64,000 bases of DNA from Planctomycetaceae bacterium (lineage in GTDB: Bacteria; Planctomycetota; Planctomycetia; Pirellulales; Pirellulaceae), in assembly GCA_002724245.1 (NCBI GenBank), contig PBOG01000214.1, forward strand, positions 29,885 through 93,884, given 5' to 3'. The notes under the pieces were generated by a model, which searched no databases, had not been told where the DNA came from, and saw only the letters and a list, made by a program, of their open reading frames with translations. This document shows, in pieces, positions 22,500-58,842 of this stretch (position 1 is its first letter; every line of letters starts with the position of its first letter). A program made the translations under genes and the position numbers.

Positions 22500-23846
22500 C
22501 TAGATCAACTCAGCCATCGGCTCGCGGTGCTCTAGTAAATAACGCGGCCGTCCGGACAAATCCGGTACCGTGGTGGTCATCGTATCGATCCCCAGCTGAC
22601 GGTAGAGGGTGGCAAACACCTCCTGATAATGCACAGGACGATCTTTGGGAACCTCTCCCAAGCGATTCGTCGATCCAATTACTTGTCCCACGCGCAATCC
22701 GCCACCAGCGAGTAAACCGCAAGACACCTGCGGCCAATGATCGCGACCACCACCCTTGTTGATCCGCGGTGTCCGACCAAACTCTCCCCAAGCGACGACG
22801 CTAACATCATCCTGCAGTCCCCGATCGTGCAAATCCTGGACTAATGCGGTGATACCTTGATCAAAGCGTGCGAGCTGCACAGGCAGTCGTGTGAAATTGG
22901 CACCGTGTCGGTCCCAGCTACCGAATGAAAGTGTCACGCAACGCACTCCGGCTTCGACTAGACGCCGCGCCATGAGAAACTGATCCATACAGTGAGGGCC
23001 GGCATCTTCACCAAAAGCTGGCGCCAATTCACCACGGCCATAACGATCTCTAAGTGCCTTATCCTCACGCTCCAAATCCATCGCTTCTACCAGGCGACTC
23101 GAGGTCAGCACATCAAACGCGCGTTGGGAAAATGCATCTAAACCATCATACGCCTGGTCTGCCTCGCGTCGAAATGCATCAAAACTCGTCAATAAATTCT
23201 GGCGTTCACTCAAGCGATCAAGCGTGATCCCTTGCAACTTCATATTGGCCATTCCGGCACCATCTGGCTGAAACGGCGCGTCAGCCTTGCCGAGAAATCC
23301 GGGAAACCCTGGGTTGGAATAGGGGTTATGGCGACTCTTGATGCTGAGGCCGACAAACGGTGGAATCGCGCGATCCACTGGACCAAACTTATTGGAAACC
23401 ACGGCACCCAACGACGGACGACCCGATTGACGCTGACCGGTACTGATCGGCCAACCGCTCATGCAAAGATCGGAGGCGTGTTGATCCGGACAACCATGCA
23501 AAGAACGAATGATGGCAACTTTGTCCATCATCTTCGACAGACGCGGCATATGCTCACATATCTGTGTGCCCGCCAGGTTCGTCGAAATAGGTTTGAAAGT
23601 TCCACGAATCTCTTTCGGCGCGTTCATCTTGAGATCGTACATGTCTTGGTGCGAAGGACCACCAGACAAGTAAATCATGATTACCGCTTTGTGGGGCAAT
23701 TTTGATCCGCGCGCAGTACCTTGGGACTCTGCCTGGAGTATCTGCGGCAACGACAATCCACCCAGGGCCAAACCACCGATACGGAGAAAATGCCTGCGCG
23801 ATGCGCCATCGCACATGCTGCGACGATTACCCAAGATCTCAAGCAT
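22500..23846 (-). CDS. DUF1501 family secreted protein (Tat signal)
   Basis: SRRHFLRIGGLALGGLSLPQIL twin-Arg signal; MIYLSGGPSHQDMYDLK; WGEFGRTPRINKGGGRDHWP. Confidence 0.93.
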   Translation of the reverse strand: MLEILGNRRSMCDGASRRHFLRIGGLALGGLSLPQILQAESQGTARGSKLPHKAVIMIYLSGGPSHQDMYDLKMNAPKEIRGTFKPISTNLAGTQICEHMPRLSKMMDKVAIIRSLHGCPDQHASDLCMSGWPISTGQRQSGRPSLGAVVSNKFGPVDRAIPPFVGLSIKSRHNPYSNPGFPGFLGKADAPFQPDGAGMANMKLQGITLDRLSERQNLLTSFDAFRREADQAYDGLDAFSQRAFDVLTSSRLVEAMDLEREDKALRDRYGRGELAPAFGEDAGPHCMDQFLMARRLVEAGVRCVTLSFGSWDRHGANFTRLPVQLARFDQGITALVQDLHDRGLQDDVSVVAWGEFGRTPRINKGGGRDHWPQVSCGLLAGGGLRVGQVIGSTNRLGEVPKDRPVHYQEVFATLYRQLGIDTMTTTVPDLSGRPRYLLEHREPMAELI

Positions 23847-24005
23847 GCCGTTGCCTCCCGGTCCAAACAGTGCGTGGCCTAACAACTGCCCCTGCAGGAG
23901 CTTATCGAATCGATAAGACCCGACGCAATACAAAAGTTTACCACACCAAAACAGAAACCTCCAACTCGTGGAGTGCTGGCATTCTCTCGACTGCTCACCG
24001 CTACG

Positions 24006-33241: not shown

Positions 33242-33685
33242 GTTCCTTCATCAACTTGCTGACAAATCACACGGTTCGATGCGCCACATCCATGACCTGA
33301 TCCACTGGGTCCATAAACAACTGACCTGGCGGATCCCACAATGAACCGGGAAATGGGCACTCTGTAAAGCAGCAAACACAAGAAAGCTCAAAACACACCC
33401 CGCATTCACCTGCTGGTGAAAAGGCGGCTTGCGCGCACTGCAAGCCCGCTCAACGGTGGTTTTCAGGTGCCCTGGTAAGACTCTCTGCCAAATCGTTATT
33501 TGCTTCCATGACACCTGGCAAGAATCCATCGGACAACGAGTGTACTCAAAAAGATTCTTCGTCCCAGCGCTGTGAATCGGCTCAACGCTGCAGAATTCAC
33601 GGGGCGCAGCAGTAAATTCCGCCGCCTGGGACCACCTGAAGCAACCGACCTCCCAGTGGCACATGTTCTGCAAGGAAGTCTATCG

Positions 33686-34363
33686 ATGTGGAAAAGTTTC
33701 CTCTATAGAAAGTCCCATGCCATGCTGAGAACTCCCCTCCCGCTACTCTACGCATCGCTAATCTTTCTGGCCTGGTTGCCTTTGGGCAATGCGGAGAAGC
33801 GACCGCGACAAATGGGACAATTTCAACCAGCACACAAGGAAGACGTTGCTATCCCTGTCCCCAGGAACGAGCAACGTGACTGGCTGGCAGAACGACTGCT
33901 GGAAAATGTTTCATCCCGGCGACAACGTCAAGTGATACGTACCAGGCTGGAACGAATGTCAGCGGACCAGATCGAAACGCTGGCACGGTTCTACATGCGC
34001 CAGCTACGGCACACGGTAGCACAACTCGAAGACATCCCAAGGCGGCGTCATCATCTCCGGCGCCACGCGGACCACCTCTTCTGGAACCAGCGCATAAGGT
34101 ACGTTCCAGTGATCAGCTGGCTACCGCAAGGAACCAGTTTCCAAGCGTCAGGTCTTATCTCTGCCGACCGAAGATCCATACGAGTCTCAGCCACTCCAGT
34201 CTTTTCTAGAATCGACCGTGTCGATCTGTATCCACTCTACCGCTACCCACAACCAAACTTCCAACCACGACAACGCCGCACACGTACCACACAGCCGCAA
34301 GTCTGGTACGACGGATTACGGACTCGCACCGGCAGTTTGCCCGTGAACACAAACCGTCGATGA
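33686..34363 (+). CDS. hypothetical secreted basic protein
   Basis: Hydrophobic N-terminus (LPLLYASLIFLAWLPLGNA) then Arg/Gln-rich sequence; no recognised domain. Confidence 0.55.
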   Translation: MWKSFLYRKSHAMLRTPLPLLYASLIFLAWLPLGNAEKRPRQMGQFQPAHKEDVAIPVPRNEQRDWLAERLLENVSSRRQRQVIRTRLERMSADQIETLARFYMRQLRHTVAQLEDIPRRRHHLRRHADHLFWNQRIRYVPVISWLPQGTSFQASGLISADRRSIRVSATPVFSRIDRVDLYPLYRYPQPNFQPRQRRTRTTQPQVWYDGLRTRTGSLPVNTNRR

Positions 34364-34527: not shown

Positions 34528-36900
34528 TCAGTCTGGCTGTTTCAAGGAAATGCCTGAGGGCCATTTCGCCCCCTGGTTAATCCAGTCTGCCAACAGTCGG
34601 ACTTGTTGACTGGTCAATGCCGGAAACTTTCCACGGCTACGCAACGGGGGCATCTCCAAGTCCTCAATCTGATCTGCAACCTGTCGAAGCAAGCGACTTT
34701 GTGCTGCCTGGCCAGGTACAATCGGAGGCAAATCACTCTCACCACCTGCAATCAAGAACGCGCGACGCGTTATACGAAACCCCGCTTCAGGTCTTGAACC
34801 ACTATGGCACCCTACGCATGACCGCTCCAGAATCGGCTGGATCTGTTTGACAAAGTCCACTGTCTTTGCAGGACCAACAGGCTTTGGCTCACTGGAAACC
34901 ACAGACGGTTTCCGATTCGTAACCGCTGAAGTCGCGTAATCGATATCGACGACTGGCCCAATGGGCTGCATGGCAAGTAACAATGCCATAGAAGCCCAAG
35001 CTGTCGCCGGCGCAGAAATCCACTGATGTTCGTCGTGTGGAAATTCACTGTCAAAGTGCGTCTGGAAAGGCCAGGTACGACTCTCAACGTACCAAGACCC
35101 ATCAGTAAATTGGGTACGGAGTAGAAATCTCATCCCACTCTGATACACCTGGTGTGTTACTGGCACGCCACCAGCGACACGCAACGCCACCAGAGCCTGT
35201 CCCGTCGCCCAGGCGTCACTCTCCAATCCAGAAAGTTGGGCCCATCCGCCATCCGCCCGTTGTTGCTCAACCAATTTGTCAACTAAATCCACCAGTTCGG
35301 GGGCAGGGACACCGGCCCAACTTAGGCCCAGTAATTTCAGTGCATGTTCCTGTTGCAATATGGGGTCAGCACGTTGCAACCACTTGCGGGCACGATCAAT
35401 CCGACTAGCTGTTTCCTCTTCTCTGCCCTCCAACGCGTAAAGCTGCAGTGAGCGCATCGCTAATACGGTCGCTAAGATCTCAGATCCACCCAAGGGAGGC
35501 CGCAGCATCCCGGGAACCCAATGCCCATCCGGACGTTGAATGTTAGCGAGGTACCAAACCAGTGCATCAGTTACTTCATCGCGAGGATATCCCAGCATGG
35601 CAAATCCCAACATGCCATAACCGATGAAACGAGGTGCGACGGGAACAGGCCTGTCCATCTGGTAAGCCCGCTCAATGCGTGGACGCCAGGACTTCAACTG
35701 TCCACGAATCATGCGGTCTATCGACTCGTCATCAACCAGCAATCCTCGATCTCGCGCCCATCCAATGGCCACGGATGGCAAGTTCTGGTGATGACAAGAG
35801 ACACAGTTTTTGCGTTTCTCCAGAAAAACATCCGAGCTGTGTTGCAGTAGAGAAATCGAAGCCTGCAAACGACGCTTGAGCATTAATTGCATGTCTGCGG
35901 GATCGAGACTGTCCACACGATCAGGAATTTCGGGCCGCTGCCTGTCTACAGGATCACTGGCTTCATGTCTCGCCAGTAACTCCAGAACTCGTGGAAAGCC
36001 TCGCTTCTTCGCCCAGGTCAGTACCGTCTCGCCCCGTTCATTACGAACATTCAGGTCCGCTCCTTTATCAACCATACGTTTAATGATCTCAGCGTCCCCC
36101 ACTTCACTGTACGCGGACAGAACCACAGGCGGCACACCACCGGGATTAAGGTGGCGATCCAATCGCGCCCCTGCTTCCAGCAACCTCTTGATGATCGCTG
36201 GTTTTTGCGCCAGCAGTGCGGCAGTTAAAGCACTACGTCCTTTTTCATGATTCGGATCTGCGCCATGACCTAACAACAGTTCCACCATTTGCTGGTCACC
36301 TCGGCCGGCCGCCAGCGACAGGTCCGAGGCTCCGTTGGTTTCAGAATTCTGCCGGGCACCACGATTGAGTAACACCTTGGCAGTTTCCAGTTCACCCGCT
36401 CGAACAGCATTGCGAAGTGCACTAGTACCTCTGCGATTCGTCACGTGCAGGTCTGCGTTACGCTCCAACAGTAAACGCACGACGTCGACTGAGGAAGCGT
36501 GTGCTGCGGCGATGATCAAGGGCGTATTTCCCAGCCTGGTCTGAACATTCGGGGCTGCCCCTGCGTCAAGTAGCATGCGAACTTTTGCGAGTTCGCGCAC
36601 ACCCCATACAAGCGCGGTCACACCAGCTTGATTAGTTACATTCGGATCGGCGCCATATTTCAACAACAAACGCACGCTAGTCTCACTGCCTCGCAACGCA
36701 GCATAGGCCAAAGGACTCGTCCCGTCCTGCATGCGCAAGCTGACAGGTGTTCCTTGGCGCAATAAACTGTCCAGCAGGTCTGTTTGATCACGACGAATCG
36801 CCTGAAATAGCGGATGGTCCGCAACGGCGGCAGTCACGCTTCCGAACAACAACCCTGTGATCACAAGAACACGCAACAATTTCACAGCTCGATCACACAT
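34528..36900 (-). CDS. secreted ankyrin-repeat / CxxCH / squalene-cyclase-like / Planctomycete-cytochrome-c fusion protein
   Basis: Signal peptide; about 8-9 ankyrin repeats (DGTSPLAYAALRGSETSVRLLLKYGADPNV...); KNCVSCHHQNLP; repeats of NIQRPDGHWV, QRADGGWAQL, QFTDGSWYV (QxxDGxW); C-terminal IQPILERSCVGCHSG...LEMPP. Confidence 0.85.
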   Translation of the reverse strand: MCDRAVKLLRVLVITGLLFGSVTAAVADHPLFQAIRRDQTDLLDSLLRQGTPVSLRMQDGTSPLAYAALRGSETSVRLLLKYGADPNVTNQAGVTALVWGVRELAKVRMLLDAGAAPNVQTRLGNTPLIIAAAHASSVDVVRLLLERNADLHVTNRRGTSALRNAVRAGELETAKVLLNRGARQNSETNGASDLSLAAGRGDQQMVELLLGHGADPNHEKGRSALTAALLAQKPAIIKRLLEAGARLDRHLNPGGVPPVVLSAYSEVGDAEIIKRMVDKGADLNVRNERGETVLTWAKKRGFPRVLELLARHEASDPVDRQRPEIPDRVDSLDPADMQLMLKRRLQASISLLQHSSDVFLEKRKNCVSCHHQNLPSVAIGWARDRGLLVDDESIDRMIRGQLKSWRPRIERAYQMDRPVPVAPRFIGYGMLGFAMLGYPRDEVTDALVWYLANIQRPDGHWVPGMLRPPLGGSEILATVLAMRSLQLYALEGREEETASRIDRARKWLQRADPILQQEHALKLLGLSWAGVPAPELVDLVDKLVEQQRADGGWAQLSGLESDAWATGQALVALRVAGGVPVTHQVYQSGMRFLLRTQFTDGSWYVESRTWPFQTHFDSEFPHDEHQWISAPATAWASMALLLAMQPIGPVVDIDYATSAVTNRKPSVVSSEPKPVGPAKTVDFVKQIQPILERSCVGCHSGSRPEAGFRITRRAFLIAGGESDLPPIVPGQAAQSRLLRQVADQIEDLEMPPLRSRGKFPALTSQQVRLLADWINQGAKWPSGISLKQPD

Positions 36901-43369: not shown

Positions 43370-43846
43370 TCACTTGCGTCGATCACTTCGTCCCACAATT
43401 TTCCCGGAACGGTCGTAAAATGTGGTACGGCTGCCAGAGGTGCGACTACTGCCTGTACGACGGCCGCTGCGGTCGTAATACGACGTCCGCTTACCCTGGA
43501 CACGACTATAGCCTGTAGTGCGTCCGGTACGGTCATAATACGACGTCCGCTTCCCCGAAGTTCTGCTACGTTCCTGCGTCCGGCCATTACGGTCGACGAA
43601 TGTCGTCCGCCGTTGATTGCCGCGTCGAACTCCGCTGACGCGACCACTTCGGTCGTAGTAAGTCGTCCGATTTCCGATGCTCCGGCTACTGCCGACCCGC
43701 TTGCCGGTCCGGTCGTAATAATTCACCCTCCCGGATCGCGCGCCGGCCGCAGTCCGCCTGACGAACGGGTTCGGATCAGCGGCCACTGCTGTCGATAACA
43801 CTCCCCACACCACAAACAGGCTAACGGTTGTCATCACACGTTTCAT
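43370..43846 (-). CDS. secreted basic protein of six 20-aa YD-like tandem repeats
   Basis: Signal peptide MKRVMTTVSLFVVWGVLSTAVAA; repeats such as RTSYYDRTGRTTGYSRVQGK, RTSYYDRSGRRTGSSRTSGS. Confidence 0.85.
   Translation of the reverse strand: MKRVMTTVSLFVVWGVLSTAVAADPNPFVRRTAAGARSGRVNYYDRTGKRVGSSRSIGNRTTYYDRSGRVSGVRRGNQRRTTFVDRNGRTQERSRTSGKRTSYYDRTGRTTGYSRVQGKRTSYYDRSGRRTGSSRTSGSRTTFYDRSGKIVGRSDRRK
43373..43729 (-). repeat. 60-bp coding tandem repeat, six units
   Basis: Six in-phase 20-aa units (last 19 aa) of consensus RTTYYDRSGRxxGxSRxxGK. Confidence 0.85.
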
Positions 43847-44094
43847 CGCTTAATTCCTTTTCGCTGGAGTAATAAATCCATCGCCATCAATAGCAAATCA
43901 CATGCCGGTAACGCGATCAGAAAATCGCTGCATCTATCAATGGCTGATATGCTGTCGCTGAACAAAACCGTCTCGTCATCCAATTGTGGCCGGATGTCAT
44001 CCAATCGATCACAGGCGAGCTTTTCGTGACCAACTAGTGACCGCACACGACAAACGAGACGACTCGCAGCCAGCTCGGCAAATGCGTGGGACAT
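43843..44094 (-). CDS. small hypothetical protein, translationally coupled to the repeat protein
   Basis: 83-aa ORF whose TGA overlaps the ATG of the downstream repeat protein (ATGA at 43843-43846). Confidence 0.4.
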   Translation of the reverse strand: MSHAFAELAASRLVCRVRSLVGHEKLACDRLDDIRPQLDDETVLFSDSISAIDRCSDFLIALPACDLLLMAMDLLLQRKGIKR

Positions 44095-54604: not shown

Positions 54605-55888
54605 TTACACAGAGAACAGGGGCGCGATCGGTGTCCCATCCCGGACCAGCATAATGGGGCGGCCGACGTTGGTCTGAAACTCCGTCCGCGGATCGATGCC
54701 GAGATTGTGAAAAAAGGAAGCCGCCAGATCGTCCGGTGAATAAGCCTGCCCCGCTGGTTCCGCGGCCTGTGAATCCGATTCGCCGACGACTTGCCCCCCC
54801 TGAATTGCTCCGCCGGCCATCAAAGCGCACATCGCACGCGCCCAGTGATCCCGACCACCGCCGCCGTTGACCGTCGGAGTCCGACCGAACTCACCGGTCA
54901 TGAAAATCGCCGTGGAATCCAAGCGCCCTCGGTCTTGTAGTCGGTCGAGCAAGCCCGCAAACCCGCGATCCAAAGGCGGTAGTAACGTGCGCAATTTGGG
55001 GAAGTTCTCCGCATGGGTATCAAAGTCGAATTCCGCTGGCCGGAGGCGCACCGTGACAAAATGCACCCCCGCTTCGATCAAGCGCGCGGCAAGCAGCAGC
55101 GTCTGCCCGAATTCATGCTTGCCAAAACGATCTATTTCCGATCGCTTTTCCTGCGACAAATCGAAGGCTAACCTTGTGCGCCGCGAGCTAATGATGTCGT
55201 ACGCCTGTTCCGAAAAACGATCGAGACCACGAACTTGATCATCGAGATCGTCAAACCCGCGAAAAGCAACGTCTAAATCATCAAGCAACTTCTTCTGCCT
55301 GGTGAATTTTGCCACCGTCAGACCTTCTTCCAGCGATACACCACGAACCTTGTAGGGAAACCCGTGACGCGGCTTTTCCGCCGTCAACGGGCTATACTGC
55401 GAGCCCAAATAGCCCGGTCCTACAAAAGACTCGTCGATGGAAACATAGGTCGGCAAGTCAGCGGCGGATGGAAATTGGCGACTGACAATGCTGCCATATT
55501 CGGGATAACTCACCGTCTGTGATGGCTTGTTCCCGGTGAGCAGATACTTCTTGCCAATACCGTGGTCTGCCAGATTATGAGACACACCTCGAAGGATCGC
55601 ATACTTGTCGGCGCGCTGTGCCAGCATCGGCAGGTGTTCGCAAATTTGCACACCACTGACATTTGTCCGTATTGGATTGAATTCACCCCGTACAGCTGCG
55701 GGTGCATCCGGCTTCAGATCAAAGGTGTCTTGATGCGAAGGCCCCCCCTCCAGAAATATAAAAATGGCGGATCGCAACACCGGTTTACCAGGTGCAGCGG
55801 CCTGCAAACGCAAATATTGGGAGAGTGTGAGACCAGCCCCCAGGGCGCCAACGCTCAACCATTGCCGACGCGTCAGCGGACTACCCAT
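54605..55888 (-). CDS. DUF1501 family secreted protein (Tat signal)
   Basis: LTRRQWLSVGALGAGLTLSQYL; FIFLEGGPSHQDTFDLKPDAPAAVRGEF; MTGEFGRTPTVNGGGGRDHWARAM. Confidence 0.93.
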   Translation of the reverse strand: MGSPLTRRQWLSVGALGAGLTLSQYLRLQAAAPGKPVLRSAIFIFLEGGPSHQDTFDLKPDAPAAVRGEFNPIRTNVSGVQICEHLPMLAQRADKYAILRGVSHNLADHGIGKKYLLTGNKPSQTVSYPEYGSIVSRQFPSAADLPTYVSIDESFVGPGYLGSQYSPLTAEKPRHGFPYKVRGVSLEEGLTVAKFTRQKKLLDDLDVAFRGFDDLDDQVRGLDRFSEQAYDIISSRRTRLAFDLSQEKRSEIDRFGKHEFGQTLLLAARLIEAGVHFVTVRLRPAEFDFDTHAENFPKLRTLLPPLDRGFAGLLDRLQDRGRLDSTAIFMTGEFGRTPTVNGGGGRDHWARAMCALMAGGAIQGGQVVGESDSQAAEPAGQAYSPDDLAASFFHNLGIDPRTEFQTNVGRPIMLVRDGTPIAPLFSV

Positions 55889-55982
55889 CGAATCGCCTCT
55901 TATTACATTCTGGATTACAGTGTGGCTCATTACCGTGTGGCTTTCTCACAGTGTGTCGTTCCACGTTATCTTGTATCGTTGG

Positions 55983-58694
55983 TCAGTGATTGAGAAGAAA
56001 TTCTTTCGTGTTCAACATCGCCCACATCAGGTCGGTGACGCCTTCAACAATCGAATCAACCGATGCTAGATGCTTGACAGCGCGAGCAATCTCGTCCTCG
56101 TCAGGCAGGCGATTCACTGTCCTGAGCCATACCTGTTTGACAAGCTCTTTTTCGCCGACAGCTCGACCTGCTGCGACCGCCTCTTCGATCTGAATGATCC
56201 AGCCACTGTCAGCTAACCGCATACGGACGAGTGGGTCGTTCTGAACAAAAATCGCCTGCAGCAGTGTCGGTTCGTTGACACGTTCACAATCACAGTTAAT
56301 CGCCCGCGCCGGTTTACCGAACACCTTCATCGCGTGCGTGCCCGCCATACGCATCGACAAATGTCCTGATGCCCTGCGTTTCAGATTCGCTCGAACTGCG
56401 TCAAGTTGTTCGGTAGCGGCCGTCGCTTGTTTCATGGCATCGTAGATGACTTCCGCGGGAATCCGGCGGGGAATAGCTCGACTGAAATTTCGGCGATCCT
56501 GTCGATTGGTCGCATTCGGCTTCCAGCTTCGCTGGTACGTCGCGCTGCGAGTAATTTGTCGATGCAACCACTTCATATCGTATGCGCTGTCGAGAAAACC
56601 ACGCGTCAGCCAATCGAGAAGCTGGGGATTACTGGGGGGGTTGGCAGGTGTAAATTGATCTGGTGGCTCGACAATTCCCACATGGAAATAGCCGGCCCAC
56701 ACACGATTCACAAAAGCCCTGGCAAACCACGGGTTGTCTTGCTCCCGCATCCACTTCATCAGCACCGCCCGGGGATCCTCGCCGGCCGCAATGGTCACCT
56801 GACCGCTCCGCAAGAGGCCCAATGTCTTGTCCGCTCCTTTCCCCACAGACAGTTCCGGCCAGTTGACGATCTTACCGCGTTGGGCGGCAGCAAACGCTGG
56901 AAAACCCATACGACCCCGCGCTGTCAGATCTTCAAAGAACCGCGTAAAGTCACTGAAATCACTCTGCGTCCATTTATCGAATGGGTGCTTGTGGCACTCC
57001 GCGCATTGCAATTGAATGCCCAGGAAACTGTGCGCAAACGCCAAGGCCTTGTCTTTGGCTTCACTGACCGTTGCCCGTGTCCAATAGTGCGGCATCGTTT
57101 TTCGCAGCGAAAAATCGGCTGGCGATTCCTGCCGCACATAGGATGACATTTCGGTGGCGTAATCTTCTCTGGACTGATCCGGCCCACGACTTTGCGCCAG
57201 TACGATTCCTGCGACGAGTTGGTCGTACGGCATGTTACTGGCGACGCGACGGTGAATCCAATCGTACCACTGCGTCGAGTAGCCGTGCCCCACTTCGAGT
57301 ACCGTCTGTTCACCAAATGCGCTGGGACTGCACCCGGTAAAATCACAAAGCTTGTTGGTCCACCAGGCCGCATAGGCCGGGCGGTTCAACAACTCGTTGA
57401 TTTTTCGCTCACGTTTGTCAGCCGCATCGTCCATCAGAAAGGCGGTCACTTCATCCGGCGCAGGCAGTGTACCCGTGACGTCAATACTCACCCTCCTGAG
57501 AAACTCCGCGTCGTCACAGAGTGCGGAAGGTCTCAATCCAAGCTTGGAGAGCTTGCCTAAAACCAATCGATCAACAGGGTTCACGTTTTCCGGCAAGCTG
57601 ACCACACTCTGATTTTTTGAGTAGGGTCGCAGCACCGGTATCGCCAGCACACCGTTATCATAAAAAGCCACGATGTGGGTATCTCCTGGTCCGACGGCGT
57701 GCGCCAGCCCCTTTGCATCGATGGTGACCACCGCATCATCATTGCTGCGAAAACGCGTCAAACAGGTCACATCCTCGTGGCGCCCGTCTTCCCACTGAGC
57801 AACCACTCTGATTGCCCGCGAATCTCCTGCTGCGGAGAACAGGATTTCCTGTGGCTCGCAATGCAGCTGGACGAGCACTTTCGCTTCAATCGCGGCAGAC
57901 GCAACAGGCCGGCTCCGCCACGGCGCTCCCATGCGAACCCACGCTTCCAGATCTGCAATCTGGCCGTCAGCCAGTTTACGCTGTGGTGGCATGCGCAAAT
58001 CTGGACTGCGATGCCGCACCGCCTGAACCAACAAGCTACCTTCCGGATCACCCGGCGTGATGGCCGGTCCCGAATCCCCCCCAGCAAGCAGAAGCTCACG
58101 GGTTTTCAGCTGCAAATTGCCTTTGCGATTGTTGAATCCATGACATTCATAGCAATTCTTCTCAAACAGGGGCTCGATCTTTTGTTCGAAAAATCGAATC
58201 CCCTGGGGGGAGAACTGGGTTTGCTGCACTACTTCGGTGCTGGCAACCGCTTGTGCTTCCACACCTTTGGCACCAGACTCAATCCAACGCAACAGCAGGT
58301 GGTGCTCCCAGGAACCTGGCTTGAAACGCTGGCCACCCTCATGATCGATCTGGGCCGTGGCCTTCAAGAGAATAAGGCTCTGCTCTGGTGCATCTGCAGA
58401 AATGCGCATGCCTTCTTCCGTGGTCGCCTCGGCCACCAAAGCCGCATGATCGGCAGCAAAATCAAAGCCGAACAACGATAATCGAAAATCGGCTTGGCCC
58501 TGAAAGGAACCATGGCATTTCGCGGAATTGCATCCGAGACGCCCCAGCAGAGGCACGACATGCCGCTGAAAGTCGGGAACGACCCGCGTTTCACGATCCT
58601 GGAAGCGTCTGTTCGCAGAGGGCACGACCGGAGGTGGCGCCGCTGCTACGACACTCGCAACACTCATCATAAGGCCCAGCAAATACTTCATCAT
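55983..58694 (-). CDS. DUF1549/DUF1553 protein with Planctomycete cytochrome c domains
   Basis: VPLLGRLGCNSAKCHGSFQGQADFRLSLFGFD; NCYECHGFNNRKGNLQL; NPVDRLVLGKLSKLGLRPS; GIQLQCAECHKHPFDKWTQ; NPWFARAFVNRVWAGYFHVGIVEPPDQF. Confidence 0.95.
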   Translation of the reverse strand: MMKYLLGLMMSVASVVAAAPPPVVPSANRRFQDRETRVVPDFQRHVVPLLGRLGCNSAKCHGSFQGQADFRLSLFGFDFAADHAALVAEATTEEGMRISADAPEQSLILLKATAQIDHEGGQRFKPGSWEHHLLLRWIESGAKGVEAQAVASTEVVQQTQFSPQGIRFFEQKIEPLFEKNCYECHGFNNRKGNLQLKTRELLLAGGDSGPAITPGDPEGSLLVQAVRHRSPDLRMPPQRKLADGQIADLEAWVRMGAPWRSRPVASAAIEAKVLVQLHCEPQEILFSAAGDSRAIRVVAQWEDGRHEDVTCLTRFRSNDDAVVTIDAKGLAHAVGPGDTHIVAFYDNGVLAIPVLRPYSKNQSVVSLPENVNPVDRLVLGKLSKLGLRPSALCDDAEFLRRVSIDVTGTLPAPDEVTAFLMDDAADKRERKINELLNRPAYAAWWTNKLCDFTGCSPSAFGEQTVLEVGHGYSTQWYDWIHRRVASNMPYDQLVAGIVLAQSRGPDQSREDYATEMSSYVRQESPADFSLRKTMPHYWTRATVSEAKDKALAFAHSFLGIQLQCAECHKHPFDKWTQSDFSDFTRFFEDLTARGRMGFPAFAAAQRGKIVNWPELSVGKGADKTLGLLRSGQVTIAAGEDPRAVLMKWMREQDNPWFARAFVNRVWAGYFHVGIVEPPDQFTPANPPSNPQLLDWLTRGFLDSAYDMKWLHRQITRSATYQRSWKPNATNRQDRRNFSRAIPRRIPAEVIYDAMKQATAATEQLDAVRANLKRRASGHLSMRMAGTHAMKVFGKPARAINCDCERVNEPTLLQAIFVQNDPLVRMRLADSGWIIQIEEAVAAGRAVGEKELVKQVWLRTVNRLPDEDEIARAVKHLASVDSIVEGVTDLMWAMLNTKEFLLNH

Positions 58695-58842
58695 CAAGTC
58701 CCTCAATGCTCCGCCCGTTTGCACATCCGGACCAACTGGGTATCAAACCATTGGATCGCAAATGGTTTTGATGCAAACTTCATGCGCGAAACCAGAAGTT
58801 CGTGCAAAACGACAACACACCTTCTCTTGAGCGCCGCTTGAA

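Follow-up and report, generated by a model that had tools for sequence, protein, structure and literature searches.

The gene at positions 34528-36900 of the window (the whole stretch of 64,000 nucleotides that was analyzed) encodes a protein in which nine ankyrin repeats (ANK), an α/α toroid of the squalene-hopene cyclase type (TOR) and a planctomycete cytochrome domain (PSCyt1, here CYT) follow one another. New here are a conserved haem motif built into a known toroid fold and the recurrent union of known folds. With a probability of about 0.5, we read the product as an exported di-haem c-type protein in which the ankyrins would dock, PSCyt1 would relay electrons and the toroid haem would be accessible to ligands, the modules having been joined repeatedly.

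The gene is one uninterrupted reading frame of 790 amino acids on the minus strand, as are all of its features given below, with the stop codon at 34528-34530 and the start on the side of 36900. An earlier note had placed a single polypeptide at exactly these positions, with no strand. By its sequence the protein is exported: residues 1-27 (36820-36900; MCDRAVKLLRVLVITGLLFGSVTAAVA) form the signal peptide that the note had proposed, recognized from the sequence and the N-terminal hydropathy and ending in an AVA cleavage site (AVA-D). The ankyrin part (residues 30-311; 35968-36813), for which about eight to nine repeats had been claimed, has nine. Tandem 33-residue helix-loop-helix repeats are evident both from Pfam (Ank_2, Ank and Ank_4, with E values as low as 7e-40) and from the nine helix pairs of an AlphaFold2 model. 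The names AnkH, MzaA and PDC-M72A, returned by PADLOC and NCBIfam, were rejected as ankyrin-repeat matches only, all NCBIfam ones being far under cut-off. TOR (residues 334-643; 34972-35901) contains three QxxDGxW repeats, QRPDGHW (455-461), QRADGGW (547-553) and QFTDGSW (597-603), and a candidate haem-c site, CVSCH (366-370; 35791-35805), whose CxxCH pattern is invariant across the family and which here extends to CVSCHH (366-371). A disordered linker (residues 646-680; 34861-34965) leads to PSCyt1 (approximately residues 681-779; 34564-34860), which carries CVGCH (695-699) and a C-terminal MPP within LEMPP (748-752, including Met750). It scored 54.1 bits with PF07635 against a gathering score of 22 (E 2.4e-14 over residues 695-752). 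These motifs and the C-terminal domain are thus as the note had described them.

The model, built on an 80-row alignment (A2), had a mean pLDDT of 88.8 and a pTM of 0.81. The ankyrin and toroid parts were mostly above 90, most of the linker was below 50, and PSCyt1 was mixed, at 49-91 by block; a single-sequence model with a pLDDT of 41 was discarded. Compared with an 85% identical relative, the whole reading frame had a dN/dS of 0.15, with 0.14 for ANK, 0.10 for TOR, 0.12 for CYT and a near-neutral 0.97 for the TOR-CYT linker. Purifying selection thus acts on the reading frame as a whole and on each of its three domains, which are held together by a loosely constrained tether.

The kinship of the middle region was established with an 11-row TOR profile (A1), which matched solved squalene-hopene cyclases at E 3e-24 over many repeats. 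All 11 members of A1 matched SQHop_cyclase_N and SQHop_cyclase_C in Pfam, while the window protein itself matched SQHop_cyclase_N at E 5.5e-6, right at the Pfam cut-off. An α6/α6 barrel is expected to have 12 helices, and TOR has 12 in the model. Among the matches listed by Foldseek for the whole model against the PDB and a viral library there were only ankyrins, a result that does not bear on the toroid. The profile match, Pfam and the helix pattern together assign TOR to the toroids of squalene-hopene cyclase type, and the α/α toroid suggested earlier for this region is borne out. Apart from marginal cyclase repeats, no Pfam or NCBIfam model covers TOR above cut-off; it is an unannotated family.

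The profile likeness might suggest a terpene or triterpene cyclase, or a lipid-modifying enzyme, with decorative cytochromes. However, the DxDD catalytic acid motif was found in none of 120 near-complete TOR modules, and because it is missing in every row TOR is not a class II cyclase. The module is also a single toroid, only half as large as a squalene cyclase, and it is exported. The window protein scored 18 bits with the model of the full-length squalene-hopene cyclase (TIGR01507), against a cut-off of 431. The CGEQ thioester motif was likewise absent (0/120), and the toroid lacks a catalytic cysteine of the zinc prenyltransferase type: the mature protein has four cysteines, every one inside the two CxxCH motifs. 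A cyclase or lipid-modifying enzyme is extremely improbable, and the earlier suggestion of a scaffold rather than a cyclase gains support. We infer that the cyclase fold has been reused to hold haem.

CxxCH stood at the same place in 80/80 rows of A2 and in 120/120 near-complete modules, so that the motif, whose loss from relatives would have counted against the earlier note, is kept. The patterns of the collection scan were built from two toroid motifs only, CxxCH not among them, and brought no bias toward it. The module HMM used to collect the rows did contain CxxCH, and of 191 relatives the best 80 were retained by the scan, which may have introduced a mild bias toward the motif; its frequency in TOR is far above chance. 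Remote TOR subfamilies scoring 70-136 bits also retain it. In the model it sits in the loop after the first toroid helix, and the first CxxCH is part of the toroid module and not of a separate cytochrome domain. Further invariant residues in A2 are R467, P469, G551, G552, W553, D562, T566, L593, G601, W603 and P621. Besides H370, no His or Met of TOR was invariant in the 80 rows; position 622 is His in 61, Tyr in 17 and Phe in 2. Because no distal ligand is conserved, a toroid haem would have an open site. In PSCyt1, C695, C698, H699 and M750 were invariant in the seven ANK-TOR-CYT rows, and Met750 of LEMPP is the likely sixth ligand of that haem.

TOR thus has the sequence mark of a c-type cytochrome, a conserved CxxCH in an exported protein, and covalent haem is predicted at both motifs. 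CxxCH can serve ends other than haem attachment, and it is quite unlikely, though conceivable, that the toroid motif is a redox disulfide or a metal site and that PSCyt1 alone carries haem. The lack of an invariant distal His or Met would fit such a site, as would the variable residue after CxxCH (H, N, Q, S, A or G). Against this, the His of the motif is as invariant as its cysteines (80/80), which a disulfide does not need, and there is no other conserved Cys to make a metal site. Moreover, exported CxxCH proteins normally receive haem where the organism has cytochrome c assembly, and a cytochrome c assembly protein (PF01578) is encoded in the same genome.

The collection scan, a pattern search of 84,980 species genomes, returned 80 loci. 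By record title, TOR loci were found in Planctomycetota, Verrucomicrobia, Acidobacteria, Armatimonadetes, Bacteroidetes and Gemmatimonadetes, while single records bore other titles. When genomes of the phylum were sampled, 22 of 246 carried TOR. Stand-alone TOR proteins of about 350 amino acids with CxxCH occur elsewhere in the same genome (L002 and L108) and in relatives. A further toroid paralogue of this genome (L003/L007; C65:53396-54216) is split into two frames by a frameshift and a stop, and is either a pseudogene or an assembly error. The remote subfamilies L121-L137, which may be distinct enzymes, have no FPHxxDQFIS segment, although CxxCH is retained in them.

Domain orders among the first loci were TOR (46), ANK-TOR (23), CYT-ANK-TOR (15), ANK-TOR-CYT (12), TOR-ANK (8) and TOR-CYT (1). 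The last was a fragment, and a complete TOR-CYT protein was found later (L119). Related genomes encode full-length ANK-TOR-CYT proteins that are 85, 72, 49 and 47% identical to the window protein, and the same order was found in Opitutaceae at about 40% identity. The modules also occur as adjacent genes. In Bacteroidetes an ankyrin gene directly precedes TOR (L053, L064 and L065, where L064 meets a contig end), and two Acidobacteria have a PSCyt1-ankyrin gene in that position (L067 and L081); the TOR genes of these pairs carry their own signal-like N termini. Pfam confirmed the architecture of ten proteins, among them those of the split pairs L053, L067 and L081 and the proteins L092 and L119. 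The combination that had been called odd does exist, but it is no one-off, since several orders recur across phyla. In L092 (5806-8481; Singulisphaera acidiphila) a CxxCH toroid is fused with an amidohydrolase (Amidohydro_3), which may hint at a substrate.

On a quick tree of the 120 modules, six changes were needed for CYT-ANK-TOR, two for ANK-TOR-CYT and one for TOR-ANK; these counts are approximate, as deep branches had weak support and some long branches met. Counting well-supported branches only, the minima were at least four, at least two and at least one, respectively. Within the precision of these counts, the joins arose repeatedly. CYT accompanied 28 of the 64 ankyrin-bearing modules and 1 of the 54 that lack ankyrins (p 2e-8 by Fisher's test, kinship ignored). 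It is very improbable that the unions reflect domain shuffling without functional meaning, aided by abundant PSCyt1 and ankyrin genes. PSCyt1 has more than 100 matches in this genome and is so abundant that some fusions could be due to chance, but the joins were repeated in different orders and also exist as adjacent split genes, CYT is almost confined to ankyrin-bearing modules, and dN/dS is low in all three domains. The recurrence of ANK, TOR and CYT in several orders and phyla suggests that they make up a haem machine outside the cytoplasm that has not been described before.

No gene neighbor conserved beyond the genus was found that would identify a substrate or partner; the neighbors of the window gene are common to the genus only. 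Facing it lies a gene (33512-34360, plus strand) with no Pfam match and genus-wide conservation of 44-69%. In L069 and L071, CYT-ANK-TOR is followed on the same strand, within about 25 bases or less, by a large gene with CxxCH, behind which lies a gene of the DUF1501 cluster, an operon-like layout with the planctomycete cytochrome set. Neighbor clustering placed DUF1501 and PSCyt1/PSCyt2/PSD1 genes near some TOR loci, these two included, but such genes were given no weight as evidence because they are very common in these genomes. The window itself has a PSCyt1-PSCyt2-PSD1 gene beside a DUF1501 gene (54608-58742, minus strand), a pair common in these bacteria. Another DUF1501 gene (22503-24005) adjoins a gene with weak esterase-type Pfam matches and not a PSCyt gene. 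A small exported protein with short repeats of the type YYDRTGKRxGSSRxxGxRTT is encoded at 43373-43849 (minus strand).

In the di-haem reading, each of the two CxxCH motifs would bind haem covalently outside the cytoplasm. That of PSCyt1 (His699/Met750) would serve as an electron-transfer center on a flexible tether, and the ankyrin stack as a docking surface that recruits a partner protein. The toroid haem, in or at a tryptophan-rich pocket, would act on, or report, a small or hydrophobic ligand. Most stand-alone TOR proteins have no cytochrome alongside, which means that the toroid cannot depend on PSCyt1 in every case. A wider and more tentative proposal, to which we give somewhat less than even odds, is that TOR defines a previously unrecognized structural class among extracytoplasmic c-type haem proteins, in which a terpene-cyclase fold with a covalent, open-site haem is the catalytic or ligand-binding core and ankyrin and cytochrome plug-ins provide docking and electron supply.

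Were the haem confirmed, the cyclase toroid would join the short list of non-classical folds that hold c-type haem. A family that is widespread but unannotated would gain testable biochemistry. PSCyt domains, abundant in these bacteria, gain concrete partner modules to test, and the TOR proteins clearly exemplify ankyrin repeats that are linked to redox parts outside the cytoplasm. In the literature searched, no paper described ankyrins combined with a haem-motif toroid and PSCyt1.

Exported ankyrins tied to haem enzymes are exemplified by the periplasmic proteins AnkB, Cj1386 and Leptospira Ank; according to PMC7567364, ankyrin proteins are needed for catalase activity, probably via haem binding, and ank-katE operons exist. 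On this precedent, and with a putative open haem site in TOR, the window protein could be a factor for haem delivery or haem-protein maturation, with ankyrins that capture a haem enzyme outside the cytoplasm and a toroid haem that is cargo or marks a chaperone site. We consider this unlikely: covalent CxxCH attachment is ill suited to cargo, no catalase adjoins the TOR genes at the loci examined, and stand-alone TOR has no ankyrins. Unlike the window protein, these catalase partners are ankyrin-only, with no toroid or CxxCH module reported in the passages covered.

The sCache_heme domain (DUF3365/Tll0287), for which haem binding has been shown, resembles TOR in being exported, in having a fold other than that of a cytochrome, in its invariant CxxCH and in often standing alone (PMC12889525), although the folds differ and haem in TOR is inferred only. 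The shared logic would suit a sensor of NO, oxygen or redox state, in which a ligand-binding fold gained c-type haem. Such a role holds a small share of our credence, as none of the architectures examined included a kinase, a transducer or a membrane output domain, and the window protein itself lacks any transmembrane output.

Planctomycete proteins with PSCyt1-3 and PSD1-5 are known in many combinations with function unknown (PMC5615132, a text with no occurrence of ankyrin or squalene and thus no ANK/TOR combination). The C-terminal domain of the window protein is likewise PSCyt1, but PSCyt2 and PSD1 are missing, and PSCyt1 is joined instead to ankyrins and a haem-motif toroid. With the squalene-hopene cyclases and the terpene cyclase-prenyltransferase toroids (PF13243, PF13249 and PF00432), TOR shares the α/α toroid and the QxxDGxW repeats; in contrast to squalene-hopene cyclase, it is a single exported toroid of about 300 residues that has no DxDD and carries CxxCH after its first helix.
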